From contig DUSX01000009.1 of the NCBI GenBank assembly GCA_012842395.1, forward strand, positions 186,001 through 250,000: a DNA stretch of 64,000 nucleotides. The letters are read 5' to 3'. The translations under genes and the position numbers were made by a program. This document shows, piece by piece, positions 47,832-64,000 of this stretch. A model generated the notes under the pieces. It did not search any database and was not told the DNA's origin. It saw nothing but the letters and a program-made list of their open reading frames with translations. Origin of the DNA: Bacillota bacterium (lineage in GTDB: Bacteria; Bacillota; SHA-98; UBA4971). Within the stretch, counting starts at the first letter, position 1, and the number at the start of each line of letters is the position of its first letter.

Positions 47832-47865
47832 GTGAGGGACTTCACGCCGATTGGAGGGAGAAAGA

Positions 47866-49365
47866 GTGCCTTGGAAAGCCATCTTAGCGATCGATCAGGG
47901 AACAACGGGCAGCAGAGCCGTGGTCTTTGACGAAGAAGGAAATGTGAGGGCAAGAGCATACAAGGAGATCAGGCAGTTGTTTCCGCACCCCGGTTGGGTG
48001 GAGCACGACCCCAAGGAATACGTCTCATCTGTGAAAGAGTGTGTGTTCGCCGTGCTTGACAGGTGCGGTGAGGATCTGCATATTGAAGGGGTGGGCATCA
48101 CTAACCAACGAGAGACTACCATCGCGTGGGATAAACAAACTGGTGAACCCATATGCAACGCTATTGTGTGGCAGTGCAGGCGCACGGCTCCGTATTGCGA
48201 GCGCTTGATTGCCCAAGGTGCTAGCGCGACTGTTCTGGATAAAACCGGTTTGCCGATAGATGCCTATTTCTCCGCGACGAAAATCCGGTGGATTCTGGAC
48301 AACATTCCAGAGGCACAGAGCCTAGTCGCTCAAGGGCGCCTGGCCGTCGGCAACGTCGATTCGTGGCTCATGTGGAACTTGAGCGGAGGCCGGATACACG
48401 CAACCGATGTGTCAAACGCGTCGAGAACAATGCTATTCAACATCTACACACGCGAGTGGGACAGCGATCTGCTTGACCTCCTCGATATTCCAGCGGATAT
48501 ACTACCATCCGTGTACGGTTCAAGCCACGTTTTCGGTGAGGTGTCAAGGGAATGGGGGGCCTTGGCCGGTACCCCAATATCGGGGGTAGCGGGAGACCAG
48601 CAGGCAGCGCTCTTCGGCCAGACGTGCTTTGAGGCGGGAATGGTCAAGAACACCTACGGCACAGCGCTCGCTGTTATGATGAACACGGGGGCCAACCCAG
48701 TGAGATCGAAGAGCGGCTTGACGACCGACCTGGCATGGTCCGTCAACGGAAGCACCGAGTATTCGCTCGAAGGGGTCGTCTTCATCGGAGGCGCGGCTGT
48801 CCAATGGCTCAGAGACGGTCTGAAGATAATAAAGGACGCCTCTGAAACCGAAGCGCTGGCGCGAGCGGTCGACGACACCGGCGGGGTGTATTTCGTCCCC
48901 GCGTTCGTTGGACTTTGCGCCCCATATTGGGACATGTACGCCCGCGGAACCATAGTCGGCCTTACGAGAGGCACGACCGCGCAACACCTGGCGCGTGCGA
49001 CCCTTGAGTCCATCGCTTACCAGACTCGAGATTGCGTGGACGCAATGGCGAGGGACCTGGGCCAGCCGGTGCGATCCTTGAGGGTCGACGGAGGGGCCAC
49101 GAAGAACGAGTTCCTAATGCAGTTTCAGGCAGATATCCTCGGCATCCCCGTGGAAAGGGCAGCCAACATGGAGATGGCGGCCCAAGGGGCTGCCTATCTC
49201 GCGGGACTTGCCTCCGGGGTGTGGAAGTCGAGGCAAGAGATCTCGAGGCTATGGAAGTGCGACAAGGTTTTCCAGCCCACAATGTCGGAGTCTCGGCGCG
49301 AGGAACTGTACAGCGGATGGCAGCGTGCCGTGGGCAGAGCTCGGGAGTGGGCTCCGAAGTCATGA
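47866..49365 (+). CDS. Glycerol-kinase-like FGGY carbohydrate kinase
   Basis: A 499-residue kinase: AIDQGTTGSRAVVFD at the start and [19 protein letters not shown] late. The glycerol-contact residues of GlpK are present ([32 protein letters not shown]). It is clearly paralogous to the kinase at 1188 but lacks that protein's insertion. Location between a polyol dehydrogenase and the SorC/BMC genes suggests glycerol or a close small polyol or ketose as substrate. GTG at 47866 follows GGAGGG. Confidence 0.88.
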   Translation: MPWKAILAIDQGTTGSRAVVFDEEGNVRARAYKEIRQLFPHPGWVEHDPKEYVSSVKECVFAVLDRCGEDLHIEGVGITNQRETTIAWDKQTGEPICNAIVWQCRRTAPYCERLIAQGASATVLDKTGLPIDAYFSATKIRWILDNIPEAQSLVAQGRLAVGNVDSWLMWNLSGGRIHATDVSNASRTMLFNIYTREWDSDLLDLLDIPADILPSVYGSSHVFGEVSREWGALAGTPISGVAGDQQAALFGQTCFEAGMVKNTYGTALAVMMNTGANPVRSKSGLTTDLAWSVNGSTEYSLEGVVFIGGAAVQWLRDGLKIIKDASETEALARAVDDTGGVYFVPAFVGLCAPYWDMYARGTIVGLTRGTTAQHLARATLESIAYQTRDCVDAMARDLGQPVRSLRVDGGATKNEFLMQFQADILGIPVERAANMEMAAQGAAYLAGLASGVWKSRQEISRLWKCDKVFQPTMSESRREELYSGWQRAVGRAREWAPKS

Positions 49366-49457
49366 TGTATGCGATGCCGTGGGGCCGACCCGCTTTGCCA
49401 CGCGATCAAGGCGCGGTTTCGACCAGTGCGCGATGGGGCGGTGTGTGATCGCGTCGT

Positions 49458-49475
49458 TCTGGGGTGAACCCCAGA
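49458..49475. terminator. Hairpin downstream of the FGGY kinase
   Basis: TCTGGGGT-GA-ACCCCAGA, 8-bp stem, about 95 nt after the kinase stop, no T-tract. Possible 3' end or leader structure for the regulators that follow. Confidence 0.4.
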
Positions 49476-49631
49476 GGAACGGTGAGGCTTGGCCGCATAG
49501 CCCACTCCTGTGCGTACGATAACGCGCGAATCCGTGTTGATTTACGCCGTGGTTGCGAGGTTCCTGTATGGTATGACGTGTGTTCGGTTCAGGGAAGGGT
49601 GCAATCTCGGAGTTCTGTTGTTGGCGGTGTA

Positions 49632-50678
49632 TTGACCTTGAGCAATCTCTCGCGTCTCCGCGAACTCGTCCGCGTGGCGAAGCTGTACTACGAGGAGAAT
49701 TTGTCCGAACAGGAGATCGCCTTGTCTTGTGGGACGTCACGGTCCAGCGTGTCGCGAATGCTTGCGGAAGCCAGGCGCAGGGGGATCGTTACGATATCGT
49801 TTACGAGCTTCAATCGCGAAGGCTCCGCTGAGGCCAAAGGATTGCGACTGACATACGGTCTCAAAGACGTGGTTCTCATTCCCAAGATCGGCAGTGGTTC
49901 GGAGGCAAGACTCAAGGAAAGACTCGGTGCTGCCGCTGCGGCCTACATCGCCGAGGTGATTCAGCCCGGTCAAATGGTGGGCGTCTCTTGGGGGACCACG
50001 CTGCTCGAGGTGGCACTGAAGCTTAGAGCTCGCAGAGTACCTGGAGTCTCGGTGGTACAGCTCAACGGTAGTGTTGGCCAGGGCGGAGCTTCATATCTGG
50101 GAGCGCAGGTGCTTGAGATGATCGCTGGCAAGCTCGGTGCCAAAGCAGTCTTGTTTCCCGCACCGGCCATTGTTGGAGACCCGGCCCTCAGCGAAGCTCT
50201 CATGAAGGATGTGTCTATCACTGAGGCGCTCGAAGCCGCACGAGGGTGCGACGTGGCTATCTTCACCGTGGGTGTTGTGGACCCCGCGTGCGTGCTGGTG
50301 GCGGCAGGTTACCTTACGGCGAACGACATGAGGCGTCTACAGACCTACGGGGCGGTGGGGGACATTTGTTCCCGGTTCTTCGACAGCCAAGGCAGGATCT
50401 GCGATCCGGAGCTTGATAGACGAACGCTGGGCCTTTGCCTCTCGGACCTTGCGGCGATTCCTCTCAAGATCCTTGTTGCCGGCGGGAGACAAAAGCTAGC
50501 CGGTATCCTCGGGGCCCTTCGTGCTGGCTACGCTGATGTCCTGATCACGGATGAGATGACGGCTTCCGGTCTTGAGGAGCTGACCAAAAACGGAATGCTC
50601 ACGCCGACGGACGTCCAGGCGAACGCAGAGCTTGATGGTGACTTACTCCGCGGCGGAGGGACTTCGCGATGGGCATAG
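49632..50678 (+). CDS. SorC-family transcriptional regulator 1
   Basis: A 348-residue regulator. N-terminal HTH (VAKLYYEENLSEQEIALSCG then SRSSVSRMLAEARRRGIV) and a C-terminal sugar-phosphate-binding domain of the SorC/CggR/LsrR type (GVSWGTTLLEVA; AVGDICSRFFDSQG). The start is uncertain: TTG at 49632 is the first start just ahead of the HTH, and GTG at 49599 is possible. First of three tandem paralogues. Confidence 0.85.
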   Translation: MTLSNLSRLRELVRVAKLYYEENLSEQEIALSCGTSRSSVSRMLAEARRRGIVTISFTSFNREGSAEAKGLRLTYGLKDVVLIPKIGSGSEARLKERLGAAAAAYIAEVIQPGQMVGVSWGTTLLEVALKLRARRVPGVSVVQLNGSVGQGGASYLGAQVLEMIAGKLGAKAVLFPAPAIVGDPALSEALMKDVSITEALEAARGCDVAIFTVGVVDPACVLVAAGYLTANDMRRLQTYGAVGDICSRFFDSQGRICDPELDRRTLGLCLSDLAAIPLKILVAGGRQKLAGILGALRAGYADVLITDEMTASGLEELTKNGMLTPTDVQANAELDGDLLRGGGTSRWA

Positions 50679-51619
50679 TGGACAGCGACGAGTTTTGTGG
50701 GAGAGTGGCTCGGCTGTACTACGGGGACGAGCTCACCCAAGCCGAGATCGCCGAGTTGCTGGGCGTCTCGCGTTCGGTTGTATCTAGGTGTCTCTCTAGG
50801 GCTCGGGCTAGGCGCCTCGTCCAGATAGAGGTTTTTGATCCAGAGGAGGTCTGCAGGGAGAGGGCGGAGATAATCCGACAACTGTTCGGATTGCGTCATG
50901 TGGTAGTGGTGCCCAATACCGAGGACAATGACGATGAAGAAGCCAAGCGAGCCGTGAGCGACGCAGCAGCCTTGTACCTCGACAGCATCGTTCGTGACGG
51001 CAGCATAATAGCCGTCTCGTGGGGTACAACCATGTACGAAGTGGCGAAGCGCTTGATCCCCCGGAAGCTTTCGGGTGTAAAGGTCGTGCAATTGAACGGC
51101 AACGCACGCTCAAGCCGCACCCACGAGAACGCCGCGACCATCCTAATGAACTTCGCCCAGGCGTACTCTGCCGAGGCGTACTCGTTGCCCGTTCCAGCGG
51201 TCACACACAGCAAGGCCCTGTCCTCCCAACTCTTGGCGGATCCAGCTATCAGCCTTGCCATAGACCTGGCGAGACGCGCTGAGATCGCTGTCTTCAGCAT
51301 AGGCTTCCCCGATGCGCGCTCGATCTTGGTGGAATCGGGCTATGTTACGGTTCAGGAGATAGCGGAGCTTGTTGCGCGTGGAGCTGTAGGGGACGTATGC
51401 TCCAGGTACTTCGGTGCCAATGGTGAGATCATTGACCCGGACCTTGACGCTCGTACGATAGGGATTGGCCTCTCCGATCTCCGGGACAAGGCACACTCCA
51501 TCGGCGTCGCCGCAGGTGCCCACAAGGCCAGAGGCATTGTCGGTGCGGCGAGGGGCGGCTACGTGAACACGCTTATCGTGGATGAGCTTGCGGCCCTTGA
51601 GATGATGCGTCTCGTTTGA
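50669..51619 (+). CDS. SorC-family transcriptional regulator 2
   Basis: A 316-residue paralogue: RLYYGDELTQAEIAELLGVS and RSVVSRCLSRARARRLV for DNA binding, then VSWGTTMYEVAKRL and AVGDVCSRYFGANG in the effector domain. ATG at 50669 overlaps the previous stop by 10 nt, indicating coupled translation and possibly a hetero-oligomer. Confidence 0.87.
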   Translation: MGIVDSDEFCGRVARLYYGDELTQAEIAELLGVSRSVVSRCLSRARARRLVQIEVFDPEEVCRERAEIIRQLFGLRHVVVVPNTEDNDDEEAKRAVSDAAALYLDSIVRDGSIIAVSWGTTMYEVAKRLIPRKLSGVKVVQLNGNARSSRTHENAATILMNFAQAYSAEAYSLPVPAVTHSKALSSQLLADPAISLAIDLARRAEIAVFSIGFPDARSILVESGYVTVQEIAELVARGAVGDVCSRYFGANGEIIDPDLDARTIGIGLSDLRDKAHSIGVAAGAHKARGIVGAARGGYVNTLIVDELAALEMMRLV

Positions 51620-51737
51620 GCGGCGTGGGGAACGGTTACACGCGTTGGAAGCCAACTGCAAATGAACCGCAAATGCCGCCTGGGATTCTGGTTTTGTTGA
51701 AGGAGTTGGCGCGCGAATGGCGAATGTGAATCGGTGA

Positions 51738-51749
51738 GCACATATGTGC
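51738..51749. promoter_or_regulatory. Palindromic operator candidate, copy 2
   Basis: GCACATATGTGC, identical to copy 1 at 38840; flanking A and T extend it to 14 bp here. A related half-site arrangement GCACGGGCACGTGTGTGC follows within 5 bp. It lies about 210 bp upstream of the third SorC-type gene and the BMC operon. Confidence 0.6.
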
Positions 51750-51812
51750 TAGCACGGGCACGTGTGTGCAGCCAGTGGGTTCTTGGCTGTCCCGGGTTGT
51801 CGTGGTGAGTCG

Positions 51813-51828
51813 GCCTGACGTCAGGCCG
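51813..51828. promoter_or_regulatory. Perfect 16-bp palindrome upstream of SorC gene 3
   Basis: GGCCTGACGTCAGGCC. It has no loop, so it is better suited to protein binding than to RNA folding. It lies 64 bp downstream of the GCACATATGTGC site in the same 333-bp gap. No other gene is seen in that gap. Confidence 0.45.
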
Positions 51829-51952
51829 TCAAGCGACTGACGTGGATGTGGTTACGCGTACCGGGTGTCCTGTCGTGCTGCGAGCGACGCAGAGGCTGCG
51901 TATTAGAGACACCGGCGCGGGCAGCGGTTAGCCTCGTACGGCCTAGATTGGA

Positions 51953-52939
51953 GTGGGAAAGAGGATGGACGGCGATGACCGTGCACAAGTGAATGCTGCT
52001 CACGACGACGCCAAACTCCTCATTCAAATAGCGCGAATGTACTACGAATACGGACTCGACCAGCAGGAGATCGCGGAGCGCGTCGGCCTATCACGTAGTC
52101 GTATCTCGAGAATGCTGACGAGAGCGAGAGAGGCAGGCATTGTACAGGTTACCATTGCGGACCCGTTCAGGGAGGAATCCCTGCTCGCCCAAGAGCTTCA
52201 GACGAAGTACGGGTTGAAGAAGGCTATCGTCTGCCCTGTCCCCCGTTCGAGCCGGGCCCCATTGGCTTGGCACCTGGCCCAGGCTGCCGCCAGGTTTCTG
52301 AGAGAGATCGTCCGGGACGGCGCGGTCATCGGTGTGTGTGGTGGGACTACAATGCTGCAAGTGGCCCGGGCGCTGCGGCCGCTAAGACGAAAAGACGTAA
52401 GCGTTGTCCAGCTCGAAGGAACGCTGTCGGGAGAAGGAGAGGCGCTTATCCACGGCAACGAGATAGCTGTCCTGTTCGCCAGGGCCTTCGCGGCCACCCC
52501 CTTTTTCCTAAATGTGCCGGCCATTGTTGCTCACGAAGAAGTGAAAGAGGCGCTCCTGGCCGAGCGGAATGTCGCGAAGGTTCTTGAGATGGGCAAGTCG
52601 GCTTCGATCGCGGTTTTCTCCATCGGGCATCCCGACAGATCCTCTCTGCTCGTCCAGGCAGGTTACTTCTCTCCAGAGGAGATGGATTCACTGGTGGCCG
52701 CGGGTGCTGTCGGAGACCTGTGTTCCCGGTTCTTTTCCGAGGACGGGTCCATTTGCGACGAGTCGTTAAACACGAGAACGATCGGTTTGGAGCTCCAGGA
52801 CTTTACGCGGAAGGACTTTGCCGTGGCGGTGGCGGGCGGCCCGCAGAAGGTCGCGGGAATAAGGGGGGCTTTGCGCGGCCGGTTCGCAAACGTGCTCGTC
52901 ACTGACGAGTCAACGGCGCAACAACTGCTCGAGGTGTAG
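51953..52939 (+). CDS. SorC-family transcriptional regulator 3
   Basis: A 328-residue paralogue: ARMYYEYGLDQQEIAERVGL and SRSRISRMLTRAREAGIV form the HTH, followed by the effector domain with GVCGGTTMLQVA and AVGDLCSRFFSEDG. It is 55 nt upstream of the BMC aldehyde dehydrogenase gene and probably co-transcribed with it. GTG at 51953 or ATG at 51965 is the start. Confidence 0.87.
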   Translation: MGKRMDGDDRAQVNAAHDDAKLLIQIARMYYEYGLDQQEIAERVGLSRSRISRMLTRAREAGIVQVTIADPFREESLLAQELQTKYGLKKAIVCPVPRSSRAPLAWHLAQAAARFLREIVRDGAVIGVCGGTTMLQVARALRPLRRKDVSVVQLEGTLSGEGEALIHGNEIAVLFARAFAATPFFLNVPAIVAHEEVKEALLAERNVAKVLEMGKSASIAVFSIGHPDRSSLLVQAGYFSPEEMDSLVAAGAVGDLCSRFFSEDGSICDESLNTRTIGLELQDFTRKDFAVAVAGGPQKVAGIRGALRGRFANVLVTDESTAQQLLEV

Positions 52940-52994
52940 TCTTTCCCACATATAGACTCAGACTCACTTGCGTGGAGGGCGAGGTGAGACGGGA

Positions 52995-54860
52995 ATGGCG
53001 CTTGACACGGACCTTGAGTCGATTCAGGAGGCGCGAGACGCGGTTCGTCGTGCTGCCGAGGCCCGCGTGAAGCTGGCGTCTTTCTCTCAGGAGCAGGTTG
53101 ACCGCATCGTCGCGAAAATGGCGGACGCGGGGCGTGCGCACGCGCGCGCCCTTGCGAAAATGGCGGTCGAAGAAACAGGTTTCGGGGTCTATGAAGACAA
53201 GGTCACAAAGAACCTCTTTGCGTCCGAACGCGTGTACGAGGCCATTCGCGATCTCCGTACAGTAGGTGTCATACGGTGCGACGGGTCCCGGAAGGTCGCG
53301 GAGATAGCCGAGCCTGCGGGCGTCATCGTCGCTCTTGTCCCGTCGACGAACCCTACGTCCACCGTAATATACAAGAGCCTGATAAGCCTCAAATCCCGGA
53401 ATCCCATCGTATTCAGCCCGCACCCTTCGGCCTGCAGGTGCAGTTGTCAGGCGGCCCAGGTGATGGCCGACGCGGCCGCAGCGGCTGGCGCGCCCAGGGG
53501 GGCGATTCAGTGTCTCGTTCATCCGACGAAGCAGGCCACGGATGAACTCATGCGCCATCCAGACACGGCCTTGATCCTGGCCACCGGGGGATCGGCCATG
53601 GTGAAGGCGGCATACAGCGCGGGTAAGCCCGCTTACGGCGTCGGTCCCGGCAACGTGCCGGCGTTCATCGAGTGTACGGCCGACATAAAGAGGGCCGTCG
53701 CCGACATCTTCTCGAGCAAGACTTTCGATAACGGCACGATTTGCGCGTCCGAGCAGGCAATAGTGACCGAGTCGGTCATCGAGGACAAGGTCCTAGGAGA
53801 GATCAAAGCCCAGGGTGGGTACTTACTGACTGATTCAGAGGCCGCGGCGCTCTCAAAGATCGTGGTGACGTCAGGAGGCGGTATCAACCCGGCGATCGTC
53901 GGAAGAAGCGCGGTAACGATAGCCAAGATGGCAGGGCTTGCCGTGCCCGACGGGACGCGCGTTCTTGTTGCCCGGCTTTCCGGAGTGGGGCCTCAATACC
54001 CCCTTTCTAGAGAGAAGCTCAGTCCCATACTTGCCTTCTACGTCGAGCCTGACTGGCAGGCCGCTTGCGAACGATGCATCGAGATCCTGGAGTTCGGCGG
54101 CATGGGCCACACGTTGGTCATTCACTCGCGAAATCCGGTCGTCATTAGGGAATTCGCCATGAAGAAGCCAGTGTTCAGGATACTCGTCAACACTCCTTCC
54201 TCGCAAGGAGCCATCGGTGCGACGACCGGCCTCGAGCCCGCGTTGACGCTCGGTTGCGGAACGTGGGGCGGCAGCATCACTGCGGACAATGTCGGGCCGT
54301 TGCACCTTGTCAACGTGAAGCGCGTGGCGTACGGCCTCGACTCCGAGGAAGCCGAACGGCTTTATGAAGAGATGCTTGTAGGAGCTGCGGGCGCGGAGGT
54401 GACCTGCAGGCTTCCCAGGCCCGGCGTCCGTCCGACCGCCGGCGAAGGCACGCGCTGGTCAGGCGTTGGAGGTGGCCAATCATACGGAACTGCGGGGCAG
54501 GCGCAAGCGGCGTTCGCCCAGCGAAGGCCGGTTCCTACCATAATTGGACCAGCGGCTGCCATCGACAAGCCGGTGACCACTCCTTTCTCGGCTCGCGACA
54601 CGGGTGGGGGCTCCAGCAGGAGCCCTGGAAGAGGAGCGACCGAACTTGGCGGAGAGCCCGGTGTGGCCTACCGCGCGGCGGGCGCTGCGAGCGTGACAAG
54701 CACGGCCGCTGCGACCGAGGCGGGAGGCGGACGAGGACAGGTAGCGAGCGACCTGCCTTCCAGCAGGCAAGCCCATCAAACCAGGCTTGTTACGGATGAA
54801 GACATCAGGGCGGTGGTCGACAGGTTCCTTTCTGAGTTGAATCGTGAGAAAGGGAGTTGA
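52995..54860 (+). CDS. BMC acylating aldehyde dehydrogenase (PduP/EutE-like) with C-terminal encapsulation peptide
   Basis: A 621-residue protein. Residues 1-460 are a CoA-acylating aldehyde dehydrogenase with catalytic Cys near 250 in NGTICASEQAIV and the loop YGVGPGNVPAFIE. It converts an aldehyde to acyl-CoA with NAD. About 125 residues of Ala/Gly/Pro/Ser-rich linker follow, ending in VTDEDIRAVVDRFLSELNRE, an amphipathic helix typical of encapsulation peptides. PduP has about 460 residues. C-terminal targeting tails are known for aldehyde dehydrogenases of several BMC classes. ATG at 52995 follows GAGGTGAGACGGGA. Confidence 0.9.
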   Translation: MALDTDLESIQEARDAVRRAAEARVKLASFSQEQVDRIVAKMADAGRAHARALAKMAVEETGFGVYEDKVTKNLFASERVYEAIRDLRTVGVIRCDGSRKVAEIAEPAGVIVALVPSTNPTSTVIYKSLISLKSRNPIVFSPHPSACRCSCQAAQVMADAAAAAGAPRGAIQCLVHPTKQATDELMRHPDTALILATGGSAMVKAAYSAGKPAYGVGPGNVPAFIECTADIKRAVADIFSSKTFDNGTICASEQAIVTESVIEDKVLGEIKAQGGYLLTDSEAAALSKIVVTSGGGINPAIVGRSAVTIAKMAGLAVPDGTRVLVARLSGVGPQYPLSREKLSPILAFYVEPDWQAACERCIEILEFGGMGHTLVIHSRNPVVIREFAMKKPVFRILVNTPSSQGAIGATTGLEPALTLGCGTWGGSITADNVGPLHLVNVKRVAYGLDSEEAERLYEEMLVGAAGAEVTCRLPRPGVRPTAGEGTRWSGVGGGQSYGTAGQAQAAFAQRRPVPTIIGPAAAIDKPVTTPFSARDTGGGSSRSPGRGATELGGEPGVAYRAAGAASVTSTAAATEAGGGRGQVASDLPSSRQAHQTRLVTDEDIRAVVDRFLSELNREKGS

Positions 54861-55155
54861 AACCGTGCCGGTGACGATCGCAACGTCACGGCCGCCAAGC
54901 GCGCGACGCCAAGCGAGCCAAATGACGGCTGCGATACAGTAGCCACAGCTGCCACAGCATGGTACCCGCGGTGTTCGCATGATGACCATGATGCCGGGCA
55001 GGGCCCGGGGCGCAATGGCGAAGAGGCGAGGGCCGGCGGGTGAGGAGAACGGGTGAGGGGAAAAGGTATAGTCTGATACTTGGTCTAGGCCCGGTTAGGC
55101 GGAACCGCAGGTGGGAACGCACACCGTGGCAAGTTGTGACAAGGGGGCAGGAGCG
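54861..55155. other. Gap between aldehyde dehydrogenase and first shell gene
   Basis: About 295 bp without a recognisable gene. No clear terminator. It ends with AAGGGGG, the ribosome binding site of the shell gene. Confidence 0.35.
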
Positions 55156-55431
55156 GTGGTTCAGGACGCACTGGGGATGGTTGAGACCAAGGGCCTCGTG
55201 GGGGCCATCGAGGCGGCCGATGCGATGGTTAAGGCGGCAAACGTCGTGCTCATCGGCAAGGAGTACATCGGCGGCGGGTATGTAACGGTCATGGTCAGGG
55301 GCGACGTAGGCGCGGTGAAGGCTGCGACAGACGCGGGCGCAGCCGCTGCTGCGAAGGTTGGAGAGCTCGTGAGCGTGCACGTCATCCCGAGACCTCACAC
55401 GGACGTCGACGCAATCCTTCCGAGGGTGTAA
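55156..55431 (+). CDS. BMC-H shell protein (PduA/CcmK-like) 1
   Basis: A 91-residue single Pf00936 domain: [20 protein letters not shown], the hexamer-edge Lys in [27 protein letters not shown] and HVIPRPH. Forms hexagonal facets with a central pore (loop KEYIGGGY). GTG at 55156, 9 nt from AAGGGGG, gives the canonical length; the frame is open further upstream. Confidence 0.95.
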
Positions 55432-55494
55432 GGCCTGGCCCATCGCCGGCCGAGAGAGCCCGGAGCCGGTGTCGGGCGGTGGAGGCAGGTGGAG

Positions 55495-56259
55495 ATGGAC
55501 TACGGCTCGATTGACGACCTCATAGCAAAGTGTGTGAGGGAGCTTGAGGCGAGGGGCTTTGCCGTTCCCGGGCTACAGCCGCTACAGCCCGGACCGGTGC
55601 CCGGCCCAGGTGGTGATCCACTTTTCGCCCAAGGGCGTGGCGACGTAGAACGGCGACGAGGCGAGTTGTTCGTGCCGGTAGGTGTCTCAAACCGCCACGT
55701 GCATCTGTGTGCGCAAGATTTCGAGACGTTGTTCGGGGCTGAGAGCGCCAAGAGCGGCCTTTCCAAGCTACGAGATTTATCACAGCCAGGCCAGTATGTT
55801 GCGAAAGAGATGGTCGCCCTCGTCGGGCCTAAAGGGAGCATCCCGAGCGTGAGGGTCTTGGGCCCGTTACGGTCGAGAACCCAAGTGGAGATAAGCCGAA
55901 CCGACGGGTACATATTAGGAATCTCTCCGCCGGTCCGTGACTCGGGCGACCTTGACGGATCGGCTCCCATAACCCTAGTTGGCCCGGCCGGTGCTGTGAA
56001 CCTTAAAGAAGGCGCGATCATCGCGACTCGCCACATCCATATGAGGCCACAAGAGGCGTCTTCGTGGGGCCTCCGGGATGGCGACCACGTGGAGGTGGAG
56101 GTTGCGGGGACGCGGGGCCTGGTGTTCAGGGGCGTGCTGGTGAGGGTGAGGGAAGACTTTCGGCTCGAGATGCACGTCGATACCGACGAGGCCAACGCGG
56201 CGCTTCTGCGAAACAGCGACATGGTCAGGGTCGTCGGGACGGGCCGGGTGCCAAGATAG
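55495..56259 (+). CDS. pduL: PduL-type phosphate acyltransferase with N-terminal encapsulation peptide
   Basis: A 254-residue enzyme converting acyl-CoA and phosphate to acyl phosphate and recycling CoA inside the shell. Zinc-binding histidines appear in VSNRHVHLC and TRHIHMRP, with the conserved RLEMHVDTDEANAA at the end. The N-terminus MDYGSIDDLIAKCVRELEAR is an amphipathic helix followed by a Pro/Gly linker, matching an encapsulation peptide. ATG at 55495 is 9 nt from GGAGG; GTG at 55489 is too close. Confidence 0.93.
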   Translation: MDYGSIDDLIAKCVRELEARGFAVPGLQPLQPGPVPGPGGDPLFAQGRGDVERRRGELFVPVGVSNRHVHLCAQDFETLFGAESAKSGLSKLRDLSQPGQYVAKEMVALVGPKGSIPSVRVLGPLRSRTQVEISRTDGYILGISPPVRDSGDLDGSAPITLVGPAGAVNLKEGAIIATRHIHMRPQEASSWGLRDGDHVEVEVAGTRGLVFRGVLVRVREDFRLEMHVDTDEANAALLRNSDMVRVVGTGRVPR

Positions 56260-56359
56260 CCGCACGACGATGGCGCTCGTGAGAAGCACGGCGGCCCCAA
56301 AAGACGTGAAAGAGACGAGATGATTTGAGCCTCGAAACGGCTCTGGAGGGGTAAGCCCA

Positions 56360-56908
56360 GTGGGTCTAGCGATAGGTCTCGTGGAATTCGCCAATGTGAC
56401 CAAAGGCATAGAAGGAACCGACGCCATGGTCAAAGCGGCCGACGTCGAGCTCTTGCTGGCGCGGCCCACCTGTCCCGGAAAGTTCACCACCCTTGTATCC
56501 GGGGACGTGGGCGCGGTGAAAAGCTCGATCGCGGCGGGGACTGCCGTCGGCGCCGAATCGGTAGTGGACGAGTTCGTCCTGCCAAACGTGCATCCAGGCG
56601 TGTTTCCCGCCATAACCGCGACGTCCGACGTGCGGGAGGTGAAGGCGCTCGGCGTAATCGAGACCTTCACGGTCGCATCCGCCATAGTCGCGGCTGACGC
56701 TGCTCTCAAAGCTGCGGCGGTTGAGGCCATCGAGTTGAGGCTCGCCATCGGGCTTGGCGGCAAGTGCTTCGTCACCCTTACGGGAGACGTGGGCGCGGTG
56801 CAGGCAGCAGTGAGCGCGGGCAGCGCCGATGCAAGTGCGAAAGGGCTTTTGGTCTCTCGCGTGGTGATCCCGTCGCCGGCGAAGGAGCTCGTCGCGGCTC
56901 TGCTGTGA
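56360..56908 (+). CDS. pduT: BMC-T shell protein, PduT-like with iron-sulfur cysteine
   Basis: A 182-residue tandem-BMC-domain trimer. It matches PduT closely in order: AIGLVEFANVTKGIEGTDAM, RPTCPGKF, GDVGAVKSSIAAGT, then second domain ALGVIETFTVASAIVAADAA and GLGGKCFV. Cys38 sits at the position of the PduT pore cysteine that, in the trimer, holds a 4Fe-4S cluster. It probably passes electrons across the shell. GTG at 56360 follows GGAGGGG. Confidence 0.92.
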   Translation: MGLAIGLVEFANVTKGIEGTDAMVKAADVELLLARPTCPGKFTTLVSGDVGAVKSSIAAGTAVGAESVVDEFVLPNVHPGVFPAITATSDVREVKALGVIETFTVASAIVAADAALKAAAVEAIELRLAIGLGGKCFVTLTGDVGAVQAAVSAGSADASAKGLLVSRVVIPSPAKELVAALL

Positions 56909-56923
56909 AACGGGGGTGCTCGA

Positions 56924-57340
56924 GTGCGTGCGGTGATCACCGAGGCTGAACTGAAAAGACTCGCTCCAGCCTCGAGGGTCCTCGTGCCCCGGGGCGCGAT
57001 CGTGACTCCCGCGGCCAGGGATTACGCCAAGGATAATGGGATCGCATTGGTCGGGACAACCGGCGAGGGCGTCTTCGGGGTTGCAGATGCCGGGATGGAA
57101 GTTGGCGTGCGACGGAACTCCAAAATGAACGCCGGTTTGCTCGAGGCACAGTGGCAGTGGCGACCGGACGCGGACGTGCATGAGGTCATGGAACGAATAC
57201 TTCGGGCTGCCGCGGCGAAGCTGGGGCCTCATGCCACTAGGGAGACTCTTGGCAGGGTTTTGATTGCCGTATTGCTCCGATTAGGTTATGCGGTTGGGGT
57301 GTCGGGTGGGCTATCAGGGATTACGTCGCAGGACCGGTGA
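56924..57340 (+). CDS. BMC-associated protein of unknown function
   Basis: A 138-residue protein beginning MRAVITEAELKRLA, then VLVPRGAIVTPAARDYAKDN. That ITPAARDY segment recurs at the start of several BMC-associated proteins (EutQ- or adenosyltransferase-like N-termini), but the rest, including WQWRPDADVHEVMERILRAA, is not recognised. No cysteines or clear catalytic motif. GTG start 15 nt after the BMC-T stop. Could be an assembly, scaffold or cofactor-handling protein. Confidence 0.75.
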   Translation: MRAVITEAELKRLAPASRVLVPRGAIVTPAARDYAKDNGIALVGTTGEGVFGVADAGMEVGVRRNSKMNAGLLEAQWQWRPDADVHEVMERILRAAAAKLGPHATRETLGRVLIAVLLRLGYAVGVSGGLSGITSQDR

Positions 57341-57356
57341 AAGGGGGTGAACCCAA

Positions 57357-57662
57357 GTGGCCATGGAAGCTCTGGGAATGATTGAGACCAGAGGGCTCGT
57401 CGCGATGATAGAGGCCGCTGATGCCATGGTTAAGGCGGCCAATGTTAGGCTCGTAGGCTGGGAAAAGATCGGCGGCGGGTATGTGACTGTCCTGGTGAGG
57501 GGAGAAGTGGCGGCATGCAAGTCGGCCTGCGAGGCCGGTGCGGCGGCGGCCGCCAAGATCGGCGAGGTCGTGTCGGTGCATGTCATTCCGAGACCGCACT
57601 TCGATCTCGAGGGCAAGTTGCCCATTTCCCTGCCGGAGACGAAAAAGGAGAAGGGCCAGTAG
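57357..57662 (+). CDS. BMC-H shell protein 2
   Basis: A 101-residue PduA-like protein ([20 protein letters not shown]; pore loop [15 protein letters not shown]) with a short charged C-terminal tail ending ETKKEKGQ. About 70% like the first BMC-H by eye, but with ACKSACEAG where the first has AVKAATDAG, so it carries two extra cysteines. GTG at 57357 follows AAAGGGGGTGA. Confidence 0.94.
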
Positions 57663-57811
57663 GGCTCTGCCGACCTCCGGGACCGGGCGCGACGACGGCT
57701 GCCGGTTCCGCAATGAATCTGCGACTGTGCGGTCGCGCCCGGTGACGTCGAGGGCACGCGGGCCCACTCCCACATGAGTGTAGCCCGGTTGAGCTGAGAG
57801 GGGGAATCTCC

Positions 57812-58120
57812 TTGATCGCCTGCAGAGTGGTGGGCACCGTGGTTTGCACGAGAAAAGACGAGAAACTCGTCGGTTCGAAGCTCCAAGTCGTTGAGCCCAT
57901 ATCCCTGGCCGACCAGTCCCCGGATGGGAAACCACTCGTAGCGATAGATACAGTCGGAGCGGGCGAGGGCGAGATCGTGCTCGTCGTGAGCGGAAGCTCG
58001 GCCCGCCAGACGTCCAGGACACAGAACACGCCGGTAGACGCGGTCATAATGGCGATCGTGGACTCCATCGAGATGGGCGGCAAGATCGTCTACCGAAAGA
58101 GCCAAGTCGACGAGAGCTGA
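57812..58120 (+). CDS. BMC-P vertex protein (EutN/CcmL family) 1
   Basis: A 102-residue pentameric vertex protein: ACRVVGTVVCTRKDEKLVG, KPLVAIDTVGAGEGEIVLVV, SSARQT and DAVIMAIVDSIEMGGK. TTG start at 57812, 8 nt from GAGAGGGGG. Closes the corners of the shell. Confidence 0.93.
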   Translation: MIACRVVGTVVCTRKDEKLVGSKLQVVEPISLADQSPDGKPLVAIDTVGAGEGEIVLVVSGSSARQTSRTQNTPVDAVIMAIVDSIEMGGKIVYRKSQVDES

Positions 58121-58283
58121 CGCGGCGGCAGGCCCCCTCCGGCGGGTGCGGCCCGAGGACAGGCGTCGCCAGACGGCTCACGTGACCGGGGCGGGAGCGC
58201 CAAAAGGCGCGAGCGACAGACTTTGCGGGCGTGGCGGACGCGGGTTGGTCGGTTGAGCTCTTGAGTTTTCAGGTGGTGGAAGG

Positions 58284-59681
58284 ATGGCATCCGCCGCGGT
58301 GAGGGACATCATACAGGCGATAAAGGATGCGGGCGTCGTGGGCGCTGGTGGTGCGGGGTTTCCGACCCACGTTAAGCTGTCCGCGACCGTCGACACGGTG
58401 ATTGCGAACGGCGCCGAGTGTGAGCCGCTGCTGGAGGCGGACCTCGCGGTGATGGCGCTCGAGCCCGTGAAGGTGTTGGAGGGGCTCAAGATCGCCATGG
58501 CTGCCACCGGTGCCACCAGAGGGTACGTGGCGGTCAAGAAAAAACGCGAGAGCGTGCTTCGGGCGATGACCGAGCTCGTCCAGGGGGAAGAAGGAATAGA
58601 GGTATTCGCCCTCGATGATGTGTACCCCATCGGCGACGAGCACGTGCTCGTACACGAAGTTACGGGCCGCTACGTCCCGGAAGGGGGCCTGCCTCTTGAA
58701 GCTGGCGTCGTGGTGAGCAACGTGACCACCCTGGCGAGCGTGGCTGACGCGGCCAAGGGCCGTCCGATGATCTCGCGCTACGTAACCGTGGCGGGGGCTG
58801 TTGCCCGGCCGATCACGGCAAGGCTCCCCATAGGTACCTCAGTTGCTGACGCGATCGCGCTTGCCGGAGGGCCCCAGACCGAACGGTACAGGGTCATCAT
58901 GGGCGGGCCGATCATGGGCAAGCTTGCGCCCGACACGTCGGCCGTGGTGACGAAGGTTACCGGCGGCATCATTGTGCTTCCTGCGGACCATCCGCAGGTA
59001 AAGATGAGAGAGAGCGACATCGGCACCATTATACGGCAGGCCAAGGCCGCTTGCTGCCAGTGCATGAGCTGCACCGAGACGTGCCCGCGGCACCTTCTTG
59101 GGCACAGGATAGCGCCGCATCTTATCATGCGAGCAGTGAGCATGAGCCCTGGGGCGCCACCGGACGCGGTCGCCAGCGCTTGGTTGTGCTCCGAGTGCGC
59201 GGTGTGCGCCACGGTAAGCTGTCCTTCGGGTCTTTCGCCGGTCAGGGTGAATCAAGCTCTCAAGGCGTCCATGGCCAGGAAGGGTCTGAGGAATCCGTAC
59301 CACGAGAAGGGGATCGTTTCGCATCCGCTGCGAGGGGCCAGGCGAGTGCCTTCGTCGAGGGTGATAACGAGGGCGGGCGTCGGTTCTTACGCGGCACGCC
59401 CAGGGACGAGTTATGCCGAAGCCGGCCGGACTGCCCATTATAGCGCAGGCACAGAATGCCTGTCCGAGGCGTTTGAGCCCGACAGGGTGATCATCCCCTT
59501 GCTTCAGCATGCGGGCGCTCCCGCGATGCCGTGTGTCAAGGTCGGAGATGAGGTGCGCAAGGGGCAACCCATCGCAGAGATCCCCGAGGGCAAACTTGGG
59601 GCGAGAGTCCACGCGAGTATTTCCGGGCTGGTCAGCGATATCGGCAACGCCATAACGATCGTGGCCGGGAGGCGCGGATGA
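58284..59681 (+). CDS. pduS: PduS-like iron-sulfur flavoprotein (RnfC-related)
   Basis: A 465-residue electron-transfer protein. N-terminal GAGGAGFPTHVKL and NGAECEPLL are the flavin/NADH-binding features shared with RnfC/NuoF-like proteins. Two 4Fe-4S motifs follow: CCQCMSCTETCPR and CSECAVCATVSCP. A C-terminal biotinyl-like fold ends the protein (VKVGDEVRKGQPIAEI). PduS was described as cobalamin reductase, but there is no B12 enzyme here, so a role in reoxidising NADH, with electrons leaving via the BMC-T cluster, is more likely. Confidence 0.9.
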   Translation: MASAAVRDIIQAIKDAGVVGAGGAGFPTHVKLSATVDTVIANGAECEPLLEADLAVMALEPVKVLEGLKIAMAATGATRGYVAVKKKRESVLRAMTELVQGEEGIEVFALDDVYPIGDEHVLVHEVTGRYVPEGGLPLEAGVVVSNVTTLASVADAAKGRPMISRYVTVAGAVARPITARLPIGTSVADAIALAGGPQTERYRVIMGGPIMGKLAPDTSAVVTKVTGGIIVLPADHPQVKMRESDIGTIIRQAKAACCQCMSCTETCPRHLLGHRIAPHLIMRAVSMSPGAPPDAVASAWLCSECAVCATVSCPSGLSPVRVNQALKASMARKGLRNPYHEKGIVSHPLRGARRVPSSRVITRAGVGSYAARPGTSYAEAGRTAHYSAGTECLSEAFEPDRVIIPLLQHAGAPAMPCVKVGDEVRKGQPIAEIPEGKLGARVHASISGLVSDIGNAITIVAGRRG

Positions 59682-60139
59682 TGAGGATAGTCATAGGCAG
59701 CGATCACGGAGGTTTCGACTTGAAGGAGGACATCAAGGCCTACCTGGCCGAGCTTGGCCACGAGTGCGTTGATTACGGAACACACAGCAAGGAGCCTGTG
59801 GATTACCCTGACTTCGCTTTCCTGGTGGCCGAAGCTGTGGCGAGGGGACTTTTCGAGCGAGGTATCATCGTTGACGGTGCGGGCGTAGGCTCCGCCATGG
59901 CGGCGAACAAGGTTCCGGGCGTGAGATGCGCTCCTTGCCAGGACATATACACCGCCAGGAACAGTCGTGAACACAATGACGCGAACGTTCTTGCCCTGGG
60001 CGACAGGGTCATAGGCAAGGGCGTGGCCAGGGAAATAGTGAAGGTGTGGCTCGCCACCGAATTTGCGGGGGGAAGGCACCTGCGCCGTGTGGAAAAGATC
60101 ATGGAGATCGAGCGCAGGTTCCTTTCTCGGGGCAACTGA
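59678..60139 (+). CDS. RpiB/LacAB-type sugar-phosphate isomerase lacking the catalytic Cys
   Basis: A 153-residue RpiB-fold protein: SDHGGFDLKE, HNDANVLALGDRV and GGRHLRRV keep the ring-opening and phosphate contacts. E. coli RpiB has ICGTGVGISIAANK with catalytic Cys66 and Thr67; here the loop reads VDGAGVGSAMAANK, so Cys is Asp and Thr is Ala. The Glu used by mycobacterial RpiB is also absent. It may isomerise a pentose, tetrose or deoxy-sugar phosphate by a different base. It overlaps pduS by 4 nt (ATGA). Presence of rpiB and deoC together marks SPU-type BMC loci. Confidence 0.85.
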   Translation: MMRIVIGSDHGGFDLKEDIKAYLAELGHECVDYGTHSKEPVDYPDFAFLVAEAVARGLFERGIIVDGAGVGSAMAANKVPGVRCAPCQDIYTARNSREHNDANVLALGDRVIGKGVAREIVKVWLATEFAGGRHLRRVEKIMEIERRFLSRGN

Positions 60140-60238
60140 GATCAGCGAAGGGGACGACAGGCAGGCGAGCTACAGGCACGCGAACGCGCGGACCGGGGGC
60201 AGACAGTGTCGACCCGGGGTTCGCGCGACTGGTGAGAG

Positions 60239-60538
60239 GTGATCGTCCTGTTCATAGCGAGAGTGGTCGGAAAGGTAGTCGCTACTCGCAAGGACGAGAA
60301 ACTGGAGGGCGTGAAGCTGCTTATCATCGAGCCGTTGAAGCGGGACGGCACGCCTTCCGGGAAGCCGTTGGTTGCCGTGGATAGCGTCGGTGCGGGCGCA
60401 GGCGAGATAGTGCATGCGGTGAAAGGAAGAGAGGCGTCGCTGCCTCTGCCAAAGGCAGGGGCTCCCGTTGATGTTGCCATCGTGGGGATAGTGGACCGCA
60501 TTTTCCCGGATGAGGGAACACCCAGGTCCTGTCGCTAG
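60239..60538 (+). CDS. BMC-P vertex protein (EutN/CcmL family) 2
   Basis: A 99-residue vertex protein: ARVVGKVVATRKDEKLEG, KPLVAVDSVGAGAGEIV, VDVAIVGIVDRI. GTG at 60239 gives a slightly long N-terminus (MIVLFIARVV), and a start nearer 60248 cannot be excluded. Confidence 0.9.
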   Translation: MIVLFIARVVGKVVATRKDEKLEGVKLLIIEPLKRDGTPSGKPLVAVDSVGAGAGEIVHAVKGREASLPLPKAGAPVDVAIVGIVDRIFPDEGTPRSCR

Positions 60539-60631
60539 GAAGCGGGCGCCGGCGTAAGGCAAGGCGTCGTCGTGCGTGACCTTCCGGCCCGTCCGGTGTA
60601 GACCGGTGGCTGACGCGCTCGAGGTGGGGCT

Positions 60632-60919
60632 GTGGTAATCGGCAGGGTTGTCGGGTCGGTTGTGGCGACCCAGAAGAACCAGAGTTTTGTCGGGTCCAAG
60701 ATGCTCCTTGTGCAGCCTTTGGATCTCGACGGCAATGATTACGGCCAGGAGATCCTGGCCATCGACACGCAGGACGCGGGGCCTGGCGATATCGTTCTTG
60801 TCGTGAGTGAAGGCAATTCCGCCCGGCAGGCCATGGGAAAGAGCGACGCGCCCATAGATTCGGTCATCATTGGGGTCGTTGACATCGTTCGCATATCTCG
60901 GCGTTTCGAAGGGAGGTAG
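60632..60919 (+). CDS. BMC-P vertex protein (EutN/CcmL family) 3
   Basis: A 95-residue vertex protein: IGRVVGSVVATQKNQSFVG, EILAIDTQDAGPGDIVLVV, SVIIGVVDIV. It is the most divergent of the three (QKNQS instead of RKDEK). GTG start follows GAGGTGGGG. Three different BMC-P proteins in one locus is a recurrent feature of SPU-like and related shells. Confidence 0.92.
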   Translation: MVIGRVVGSVVATQKNQSFVGSKMLLVQPLDLDGNDYGQEILAIDTQDAGPGDIVLVVSEGNSARQAMGKSDAPIDSVIIGVVDIVRISRRFEGR

Positions 60920-60973
60920 GCCGTACCTCGCTCGCGCACGCGGCCCAGGCCGGGCGCGATACGGCATGGTTGG

Positions 60974-62533
60974 ATGGGAATTGATGAGTTGATCGAGAGG
61001 GTCACCGACGACGTGATAGCTGAGATGAAGAAACGAGGCGAGATCCCACAGGTGACACCGAGTCAGCCCGGGGCGTCCCCAACTCGAGGGGTCTCATCCG
61101 CTGCGGGATCGGGGGACGGCCCGAGAGTGCTCGTGATCTTGGCCGGCGACAGGACGCTGCTTGAGAACGCGCTGGTCCAGTTGGGACGAATCGGTGACCG
61201 CGGGCTCTCTGTTGCGTGTCTTATGTCCGCGGAAGCCAAGGAGTCGTGCGGCCAGAGCGCCGTATCAGGGGCGCTGGGTCGGGTGTCCTTCGTGGATGAA
61301 CGAGACGCCCTGAGTGCGGCTTCATGTGCTGATGTTGCGGTGGTCCCGGTCCTTCCCCTCCACGTGGCGGCGCGCGCGGCGCTGCTGACTGGCGACGACG
61401 CAGTCACAAACGCTATCGTCACGATGCTTGCGCAAGGTAAGCGGGTCTATGCCGCAGCCGACTCGTTACAGCTGGCAGCCGGCCGAATGGACGGTGGAAA
61501 CGGTGGGCGGGTGGGGCAGAACTTCGCCCTCCGCAGGCAAATGGACGAGTACCTCAAGAGACTCCGGGAATACGGCATGATAGTCGTTGACTCCAAGGAC
61601 CTCGGGCATGAACTGGAGCGCGGGCTCCGTATAGTGGGTGCGGCGCGTTCGGAAAGCGCGGGCCCGTCGACGGTTTTCACTGGGGGCGCCCCTGTCCCCG
61701 GTGCTGCGGCGGAGGGCCGATCGGGGACCCGGACCGGCAGTGCGGACTCATCAAAGTGCTCGAGGCTTTTCGGCGAATGCTCCGCATGTGGGAAGTGCGT
61801 CCAGGAGAATCCTGACGGCACGGCGAGGATAGTCGAAGCGGGGGCGTCGCGGATTGCCGCCGCGCCCGGCGTCGGCGCGATTGCCAGCGATGTGGCCGCC
61901 ATGATAGACCATACGCTACTGAAGCCTGACGCCACGCGAGACCAGATCGTCAAGTTGTGCGAAGAGGCGAAGCAATACGGTTTCGCGTCGGTTTGTGTGA
62001 ACCCCACCAACGTGAGCCTCGCGGCGAGCCTCCTCAAGGGTACACCCGTGAAGGTGTGCACTGTCATTGGCTTCCCGCTCGGAGCTACGACTCCGACCGC
62101 GAAAGCGGTGGAAACCCGCGATGCCATAGCAAACGGCGCGACCGAAGTGGACATGGTCATCAACGTGGGGGCCCTCAAGTCAGGCGACTACGACCTGGTC
62201 AAACGCGACATCGAGGCGGTGGTGGACGCGGCCCGCGGCAAAGCGATCGTCAAGGTCATCCTTGAGACGGCGCTTCTGACGGACGAGGAAAAGGTGAAGG
62301 CCTGCCTGCTGGCGAAGATGGCTGGAGCTGACTTTGTGAAGACTTCGACCGGCTTTGGCCCCGGCGGCGCGACTGTCGAAGACGTGAGGCTCATGCGCAA
62401 AGTGGTCGGCAAAGAGATGGGGGTGAAGGCCTCCGGCGGCATCAGAAACCTTGAATCTGCGCGCAAGATGATAGAGGCGGGGGCTTCGCGTATAGGCGCT
62501 AGTGCTAGCGTTGCGATCGTGAAGGGTGAGTAG
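60974..62533 (+). CDS. deoC: Fusion: encapsulation peptide + flavoprotein-like (HFCD) domain + Cys motif + deoxyribose-phosphate aldolase
   Basis: A 519-residue multidomain protein. Residues 1-22 ([20 protein letters not shown]) form an amphipathic helix like an encapsulation peptide. Residues about 45-220 resemble HFCD flavoproteins ([34 protein letters not shown]). Residues about 260-276 hold [14 protein letters not shown], a possible iron-sulfur site. Residues about 290-519 are Deo[28 protein letters not shown], Schiff-base Lys in FVKTSTGFG near 455 and VKASGGIRN. DeoC alone has about 220 residues. The aldolase would split 2-deoxyribose 5-phosphate, or a relative, into acetaldehyde and glyceraldehyde 3-phosphate, feeding the aldehyde dehydrogenase. 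ATG start at 60974. Confidence 0.9.
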
Positions 62534-62658: not shown

Positions 62659-64000
62659 CTACCAGCCGAACCTCACGTGGAACCACCTCTTTACGAGCTC
62701 GACCATGACAAGGTAGGCCGAGACCATTCCGGCGAGAACGAGGAAGAACGCCGGCGGAAGAGGCGTGAACCCGAAAAACAGACCGACCGGGGTATACGGT
62801 ATCGCTACGCCGAGCCCGACGGCCGCAAGCGTCGTGAACCATAACGCGGCGCTTGCCTTGCTTTTGAGGACGCTTTGCCGTGAACGGATGACATGGATGA
62901 CCAGGGTCTGGGTGGCAAGCGACTCGACGAACCATCCGGTCTGGAAGAGCGCAGCTCCCGCGTGGAATAGTCGGAGCATGACGAGATAGGTCAGGATATC
63001 GTAGAGAGAGCTGATCGGGCCGAAGATGAGCATGAAGTTCCTGATGAACCCGACATTCCATCGCCGCGGTCGCGCTATGTAGTCACCGTCCACGCGGTCA
63101 GTTGGGATGCTCACCTGCGAGAAATCATAGAGCAGGTTGTTGAGCAGTATTTGCACCGGCAGCATGGGTAGGAAGGGCACGAGCACCGATGCCGCGGGGA
63201 CGCTGAACATGTTCCCGAAATTGGAGCTGGTTCCCATCATTATGTATTTCATCGTGTTCGCGAAGGTCCGGCGCCCCTCCACTATGCCATTCTCAAGGAT
63301 GTCAAGGCCTTCCTCCATGAGGACGATATCCGCAGCTTCCTTTGCCACGTCGGCGGCATTGTTGACGGAGATCCCCACGTCGGCCGTGCGCAGCGACAGC
63401 GTGTCGTTGATGCCGTCTCCCATGTAGCCGACGACGTGCCCACTCCGCTTCAGGACGGTGATCACGCGGCTCTTCTGCTCCGGGCTGAGGCGTGCGCAGA
63501 TGGTCGCGGTCTCCAGCCGCGAGGCGAGGTCCTCATCGCTCATGAGATCCATCTCGTGTCCCATGAGGACTCCGCCGACCTTGAGCCCGACACGTTCACA
63601 GATTTGCTCTGTGACGAGCTCATTGTCACCCGTGAGGATCTTGACGTTCACCCCGAGCCTAGCGAGTTCCTCGAGCGACTTTGCCGCGCTGGCCTTGGGA
63701 GGGTCTATGAACGTGACGTAACCTGCGAAGACCATGTCGGTCTCGTCGTCTCTGGAATATACGTTTCTGTTGCTGTCGATGCGCTTGTAGGCCACTGCAA
63801 GCACCCGGTAACCATCCCGGCTCAACTCCGTGAAGCGGTCGTACGCCAGACGCTTGAGAGCAGGGCCGAACTCGACCGGCTTTCCGTCCACTTCCGCTAG
63901 AGCACACACATCCAGGAGACTCTCGGGAGCGCCCTTGGTTATCAGGATACGCTCGGCGTCTTTTTCGGCGACCACCGACGTGCGCTTACGGACGAAGTCG
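62659..64000 (-). CDS. mgtA: Magnesium-transporting P-type ATPase (MgtA-like), C-terminal part
   Basis: The gene runs off the right end of the window; 447 C-terminal residues are visible. They contain part of the nucleotide-binding domain (ITKGAPESLLDVC), DPPK, the hinge GYMGDGIND and transmembrane segments 5-10, including NNLLYDFSQ, characteristic of the P3B Mg2+ pumps MgtA/MgtB. The phosphorylation-site Asp lies outside. After GDGIND the usual AP(A/S)L reads TLSL. It converges with the BMC operon, with a 125-bp gap and no clear terminator. Confidence 0.92.
   Translation of the reverse strand, partial: DFVRKRTSVVAEKDAERILITKGAPESLLDVCALAEVDGKPVEFGPALKRLAYDRFTELSRDGYRVLAVAYKRIDSNRNVYSRDDETDMVFAGYVTFIDPPKASAAKSLEELARLGVNVKILTGDNELVTEQICERVGLKVGGVLMGHEMDLMSDEDLASRLETATICARLSPEQKSRVITVLKRSGHVVGYMGDGINDTLSLRTADVGISVNNAADVAKEAADIVLMEEGLDILENGIVEGRRTFANTMKYIMMGTSSNFGNMFSVPAASVLVPFLPMLPVQILLNNLLYDFSQVSIPTDRVDGDYIARPRRWNVGFIRNFMLIFGPISSLYDILTYLVMLRLFHAGAALFQTGWFVESLATQTLVIHVIRSRQSVLKSKASAALWFTTLAAVGLGVAIPYTPVGLFFGFTPLPPAFFLVLAGMVSAYLVMVELVKRWFHVRFGW

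Follow-up and report, generated by a model that had tools for sequence, protein, structure and literature searches.

What makes the aldehyde in a bacterial microcompartment whose operon carries deoC and rpiB, and what would an RpiB-family protein do there? These questions are raised by a locus at positions 50669-62533 of a 64,000-nucleotide stretch of a Bacillota bacterium genome (GCA_012842395.1, contig DUSX01000009.1, here C9, positions 186,001 to 250,000; hereafter the window). The likely substrate of the aldolase DeoC, 2-deoxyribose 5-phosphate (dR5P), lacks the C2 hydroxyl that an aldose-ketose isomerase needs. We find that the locus is a complete microcompartment operon of the sugar-phosphate utilizing (SPU) type, and we consider it likely that it encodes a catabolic compartment for dR5P with DeoC as the aldehyde source. 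The new point concerns the second signature enzyme of these loci: judged from the sequences compared here, it belongs to a separate RpiB subfamily whose members all carry aspartate in place of the catalytic cysteine.

The SPU type was named by Axen et al. 2014 from eight loci (PMC4207490); Sutter et al. 2021 later counted more than 280 such loci in 26 phyla and divided them into seven subtypes (PMC8217296). Both defining papers inferred a catabolism of DNA sugars, and both recognize the type by a pfam01791 aldolase and a pfam02502 protein together with an aldehyde dehydrogenase (AldDH), PduL and shell genes (PMC4207490, PMC8217296). The window locus holds this gene set, with two BMC-H, one BMC-T and three BMC-P genes, a DeoC-type aldolase, an RpiB-type protein, AldDH and PduL; since SPU is already a published type, the locus adds no new kind of compartment. 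A previous interpretation made without database searches (the sequence-only reading) had described the gene run at 52995-62533 and had called it SPU-type. Open reading frames and profile matches recovered all of its genes on the + strand at these coordinates, and the comparison with the curated locus type upheld the class. Its claim that the run contains no diol dehydratase, ethanolamine lyase or glycyl-radical enzyme was likewise borne out, as no signature dehydratase, lyase or glycyl-radical enzyme of the PDU, EUT or GRM types is encoded in the locus.

The conserved unit starts upstream of that interval, at two SorC-family regulators (50669), and forms a single strand-uniform run of 14 genes, all on the + strand. 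Their order is SorC2, SorC3, AldDH, BMC-H, PduL, a PduT-like BMC-T and a 138-aa protein, followed by BMC-H, BMC-P, PduS, RpiB, BMC-P, BMC-P and DeoC. The same order, SorC2 through DeoC, is found in two more Bacillota genomes (L008 and L009; 54-99% identity), and because it recurs there in its entirety, the locus is not a chance assembly. In a genome-wide profile search, every BMC-domain match (four) and every EutN/CcmL match (three) fell inside the locus, and no satellite shell genes were detected elsewhere.

Within this conserved unit, the RpiB homologue (59678-60139) deserves the closest attention. The sequence-only reading was right about the family (PF02502, 195 bits), but the protein is without the catalytic cysteine, and the label of a ribose-5-phosphate isomerase is unsafe. 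In the alignment it reads VDGAGVGS versus ICGTGVGI and ICGTGLGI in the RpiBs of E. coli and C. thermocellum, which puts Asp66 and Ala68 in the places of the canonical catalytic base Cys66 and of Thr68 (ICGTGxGx in canonical proteins). Residues D9, H10, Y43, H99, N100, R133, H134 and R137 are retained. In the RpiB mechanism (E. coli numbering), Cys66 takes the C2 proton and Thr68 moves the O2 proton, and His99 works in ring opening; mutants in which this Cys is exchanged for Ser or Ala (C69S, C69A) are dead (PMC4783025). Two further RpiB paralogues of the same genome lie outside the microcompartment locus; both keep CGTG, and one stands beside transketolase-like genes.

To place this protein among its relatives, a profile search for SPU-RpiB covered 399 genomes from this phylum, 301 from a Chloroflexota phylum group and 19 genomes with loci found through DeoC; the sequences were thus collected by similarity, flanks were often short, and the search for shell genes did not extend to every genome. 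After removal of duplicates, Asp66 and Ser72 occurred together in 52/52 SPU-associated RpiBs from several phyla, while 109/109 other RpiBs, the two paralogues of this genome among them, had Cys66 without Ser72, and no mixed case was found among the 52 and 109 sequences. Where the fetched flank contained shell genes or DeoC, the RpiB of the first set was of the Asp type in 25/25 cases; the eight Asp/Ser RpiBs lacking such neighbours came from genomes that elsewhere contain an SPU locus or a DeoC bearing an encapsulation-type tag (tagged DeoC). The Chloroflexota gave 20/20 Asp types, 19 with adjacent DeoC and one at a contig end, and 29/29 Cys types with neither. A scan of the whole protein identified positions 66 and 72 as the only ones that separate the two groups. 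The eight pocket residues listed above are invariant in the 52 Asp-type proteins, and Thr68 is usually replaced by Ala, Val or Ile but kept in four Ignavibacteria-group members. In the RpiB tree, the Asp group lies on one side of a supported branch; when the signature columns were removed, two changes were needed instead of one, compared with 28.7 for shuffled labels. A sporadic mutation was considered as the origin of the Asp type, which is, however, fixed in 52 sequences on one side of that branch. As a separate observation, Ignavibacteria/Melioribacteraceae (L016, L080, L084, L085, L151-L154) encode tagged DeoC and Asp-type RpiB at separate places; their RpiB is a DATGIPS variant that retains Thr68, and the fetched flanks revealed no shell genes.

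Gene content, conservation, residue changes and the association with SPU in our sample are direct readings of the sequences. They indicate that SPU-RpiB is a compartment-specific subfamily, marked by the change of Cys66 to Asp and by Ser72 and associated perfectly with SPU in this sample. Because only positions 66 and 72 separate the groups while the pocket residues are invariant, selection appears to hold a sugar-phosphate pocket with altered C1-C2 chemistry. The papers that defined SPU treat RpiB solely in terms of ribose-5-phosphate isomerisation (PMC4207490, PMC8217296), and a literature search for RpiB and microcompartments found no further treatment of the SPU protein. The RpiB annotation is unsafe for all SPU-type RpiBs examined, and the two-residue signature offers a simple sequence marker for SPU compartments, also when the gene lies away from shell genes.

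The partner aldolase, in comparison, looks conventional in its catalytic part. The gene at 60974-62533 encodes a chimeric deoxyribose-phosphate aldolase (TIGR00126, 301 bits versus a cut-off of 117; PF01791, 60.6 bits), and it was the only DeoC detected by a search of the genome, which is rated 98% complete. The Schiff-base lysine K456, the second lysine K485 and the aspartate D393 are kept in each of 24 tagged DeoCs, and a comparison with 56 ordinary DeoCs showed no active-site position that distinguishes the two sets. A changed specificity of DeoC was considered and finds no counterpart in the active site. AldDH (52995-54860), an EutE/PduP-like acylating enzyme, exceeds the TIGR02518 cut-off for acetylating acetaldehyde dehydrogenases (674 versus 620 bits).

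A supply of dR5P is genetically possible, because the genome contains DeoB, PNP-family and phosphorylase genes. DeoB (phosphopentomutase) and a PNP-family gene adjoin each other at C9:159.5-161.8 kb, some 24-26 kb ahead of the window; further phosphorylase genes are found on other contigs, among them one on contig 31 that has a BMP-type binding protein nearby. Both regulators at the start of the unit, SorC2 (50669-51619; kept in synteny in L008 and L009 with 89-97%) and SorC3 (51953-52939), are closest to B. subtilis DeoR, yet they remain below the NF053881 cut-off (294 and 342 versus 420 bits). The best PDB matches of SorC3 are the B. subtilis deoxyribonucleoside regulator structures 8r7y/4oqp. 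The effector of B. subtilis DeoR is dR5P, which is bound covalently (PMC11229326).

From these elements, the following pathway can be proposed. Outside the shell, deoxynucleosides would be cleaved and turned into dR5P by nucleoside phosphorylase and DeoB. Inside, DeoC would split dR5P into glyceraldehyde-3-phosphate, which would leave, and acetaldehyde, which would be held. The EutE-like dehydrogenase would then convert acetaldehyde to acetyl-CoA and NADH, and PduL would form acetyl phosphate and return CoA. NADH would be reoxidised by PduS, with the electrons passing out via a 4Fe-4S pore of the PduT-like shell protein. RpiB, with its pocket and its ring-opening histidine kept, may open the dR5P furanose or present it to DeoC. 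Encapsulation, substrate, electron route and RpiB activity are what we infer in this scheme, and our confidence in a dR5P compartment fed by DeoC does not extend to the ring-opening role of RpiB, which is graded separately below.

The first alternative to weigh concerns the aldehyde itself, which could come from an enzyme encoded outside the locus (ethanolamine lyase, diol dehydratase or glycyl-radical enzyme), leaving DeoC and RpiB with side functions. EUT modules do serve some SPU3, SPU6 and HO compartments (PMC8217296). Signature enzymes of this kind were sought across the whole genome: EutB was absent while the E. coli positive control was detected, and the sole glycyl-radical enzyme is pyruvate formate-lyase (TIGR01255, 1118 bits). 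An EUT or GRM satellite was rejected as aldehyde source on these grounds. PF02286 (diol dehydratase) gave no genome match, though the control set gave none either, and satellite shell genes are missing as well. An external aldehyde source is thereby largely refuted, and we regard it as very improbable. The proposal of the sequence-only reading that DeoC makes the aldehyde inside the shell withstood this search, and with a sole genomic DeoC that bears an encapsulation-type helix and intact catalytic residues it is the best-supported account, conditional on the predicted encapsulation and substrate. The role of the altered RpiB is harder to assign. Its annotated reaction is doubtful, and it probably does something other than this isomerisation. 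As dR5P cannot be isomerised while the ring-opening residues are kept, we tentatively suggest that SPU-RpiB is a non-isomerising ring opener (anomerase) that opens or presents the dR5P furanose and feeds the open-chain aldehyde to DeoC. It would have arisen from an isomerase through exchange of the C2-proton base and gain of Ser72, with the part of the active site for ring opening retained. The signature would also fit if the true substrate is a 2-deoxy sugar, for which an isomerisation base is of no use, and the DeoC-RpiB fusions described in Marinimicrobia by Axen et al. (PMC4207490) would suit a hand-over from RpiB to DeoC. Nearly as likely is an altered but true isomerase, with Asp66 as base and Ser72 as proton shuttle, which would act on ribose 5-phosphate or another pentose phosphate in a compartment handling several sugar phosphates. 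The complete retention of the binding residues (52/52) and of Thr68 in the four Ignavibacteria-group members speaks for this possibility, as does the known use of Asp or Glu as base in related chemistry, including Glu75, which stands in place of Cys in M. tuberculosis RpiB (PMC4783025). It is harder to reconcile with a partner aldolase that resembles an ordinary dR5P aldolase, whose substrate is not isomerisable, with the two canonical RpiBs that the genome already has, and with the fact that an isomerase would make no toxic intermediate and so would give no evident reason for encapsulation.

SPU-RpiB might also be catalytically idle and serve as scaffold, sensor or partner subunit, in the way LacA complements LacB, organising DeoC in the lumen or controlling the entry of sugar phosphates. 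LacA, whose Cys is borne by its partner LacB, also has Asp at the position of residue 66, SPU-RpiBs of other phyla are fused to N-terminal helices or a TIGR02536-like module, and for GRM1 compartments, catalytically idle copies of enzymes have been described (PMC4207490). However, LacA is without Ser72 and several pocket residues, whereas the SPU-RpiB pocket is kept more strictly than that of canonical RpiBs, and the locus has no gene for a Cys-type partner; we consider an idle protein unlikely. Several points nevertheless weigh against the dR5P compartment with its ring-opening RpiB. The VVQLKGG motif of DeoR aligns with VVQLEGT in SorC3, with Glu for the lysine, and SorC2 reads VVQLNGN, with Asn. 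This lysine is presumably the one that forms the Schiff base with dR5P, and because it is missing in both DeoR-like regulators, the inducer may bind differently or may be another sugar phosphate, which again agrees with a true isomerase. Asp66 could itself be an isomerisation base, so that we only infer the loss of isomerase activity, and pentose phosphates also open their rings without an enzyme. The encapsulation helices are moderately amphipathic compared with shuffles (fractions 0.09-0.12), and the literature found contains no biochemistry for any SPU compartment.

The predicted cargo proteins carry extensions of several kinds. DeoC (519 aa), whose chimeric build the sequence-only reading did not note, comprises an encapsulation-type helix (residues 1-20), a UbiX/EpiD-fold domain (about 50-230), a Cys-rich linker (262-275) and the aldolase (306-519). 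A Pfam search with the N-terminal domain gave no identification; the fold search gave one, as the AlphaFold model (pTM 0.80) has the UbiX/EpiD/CoaC fold and matches UbiX 6qlg in Foldseek (E=1.2e-7, probability 1.00, TM about 0.6). Its relationship to TIGR02536 is distant (E 0.02 for the window protein, 3e-5 for that of L013). The same architecture is present in Riflebacteria (L010, L011, L013), and most other SPU DeoCs consist of helix and linker only in front of the aldolase. The Cys-rich linker (window 61757-61800, at least three Cys) sits between the encapsulation helix and the aldolase; it also occurs in L010-L014, L018, L027, L030, L033 and L045, is absent from ordinary DeoCs and could bind Zn or Fe-S. 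AldDH ends in an amphipathic helix (end residues EDIRAVVDRFLSELNRE; muH 0.58, shuffle fraction 0.086), which is separated from the dehydrogenase domain by an Ala/Gly/Thr-rich linker of about 140 residues (54360-54790). PduL (55489-56259; PF06130, 250 bits; NF011652 above cut-off) has an N-terminal helix.

The 138-aa protein (56924-57340), to which the sequence-only reading gave no label, matches the C-terminal part of TIGR02536 (E=1e-5) and weakly PF02817 (E=0.003); a PDB sequence search with it returned chance matches only. Its N-terminal segment, 'ITEAEL..VTPAARD..GI', is the module that is fused N-terminally to SPU-RpiBs of Chloroflexota and Ignavibacteria (fused form in L139-L142, L146, L148-L149 and L151-L154). 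The protein looks like an assembly module that is either joined to RpiB or encoded next to it. In Chloroflexota and Eisenbacteria (L139-L142, L144, L145, L209, L213), SPU-RpiBs have N-terminal helix-like extensions that resemble encapsulation peptides, and for this reason RpiB itself is probably cargo in these groups.

Since no alcohol dehydrogenase is encoded in the conserved unit, the reoxidation of NADH probably falls to PduS. The PduS/RnfC-like flavo-Fe-S NADH oxidoreductase (58284-59681) has the full domain set (Complex1_51K, SLBB, Fer4_17, RnfC_N) and the Cys cluster CCQCMSCTETCP. The BMC-T protein (56360-56908) with its two BMC domains aligns end to end with PduT 3n79 (1-175 to 1-175), and its Cys38 lies in a CPGKF motif, of which CPGK is conserved in PduT-type alignments; this residue may be the pore cysteine that binds a 4Fe-4S cluster. 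PduS is known to oxidise NADH and to bind PduT (PMC2982820), and electrons have been proposed to leave through the PduT pore (PMC2982820; PMC6325248). NAD is probably recycled by the corresponding pair in this locus.

The remaining genes of the unit encode shell proteins. Two BMC-H proteins (55111-55431 and 57357-57662; PF00936, 99.6 and 104.7 bits) are accompanied by three BMC-P vertex proteins at 57812-58120 (PF03319, 108.9 bits), 60239-60538 (PF03319 genome match at C9:246251-246496, with NCBIfam EutN/CcmL matches) and 60632-60919 (PF03319 genome match at C9:246638-246883). Gaps inside 52995-62533 range from -4 to 250 bp; the first 4 bp of the RpiB gene lie within the end of the PduS gene, and the remaining gaps across the 50669-62533 unit measure 15-333 bp. 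A scan for promoters and terminators gave counts near the shuffle level. Directly after the operon, a convergent gene on the - strand (62659-63999), of which the C-terminal part is present and which by eye is P-type cation ATPase-like, marks the operon end. Upstream, the + strand carries a sugar/polyol-type block (38967-50678) with a ribose-type ABC transporter, an SDR, two Zn-alcohol dehydrogenases (38967, 46749), glycerol kinase (TIGR01311, 680 bits, above cut-off) and the SorC1 regulator. It was rejected as a part of the system, as in L008 and L009 the conserved order begins at SorC2 and the block is missing, and its alcohol dehydrogenase genes are accordingly not conserved with the locus.

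Compared with known systems, the locus shares with the SPU loci of Axen 2014 and Sutter 2021 the combination of DeoC, RpiB, AldDH, PduL, BMC-H/-T and BMC-P without an alcohol dehydrogenase, and with the Atribacteria SPU locus also PduS. It differs from them in the fusion of DeoC to a UbiX-fold domain and in a separate 138-aa gene for a module that elsewhere is fused to RpiB. The fold of the DeoC N-terminal domain is that of the TIGR02536 microcompartment protein and of the UbiX/EpiD/CoaC flavoproteins, but here it is fused to an aldolase and the sequence similarity is weak. As in the Pdu compartment, a PduS with the same domain set is paired with a PduT-type BMC-T bearing a pore Cys38, whereas a cobalamin enzyme is missing and the proposed role of the pair would be NADH reoxidation. 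The B. subtilis DeoR/dra-nupC-pdp regulon likewise has a SorC-family regulator adjoining a dR5P aldolase gene; the window regulators differ in their scores below the cut-off and in the absent effector-site lysine, and the aldolase is part of a microcompartment operon. Canonical RpiB (E. coli 1nn4, C. thermocellum 3he8) and SPU-RpiB have the fold, the sugar-phosphate binding residues and His99 in common, and they differ in Cys66 to Asp, residue 72 to Ser and, usually, Thr68 to Ala, Val or Ile. The sole other RpiB relative found in the alignment with Asp at position 66 is LacA of galactose-6-phosphate isomerase, which, unlike SPU-RpiB, has a divergent pocket without Ser72 and works only with the Cys-carrying LacB.

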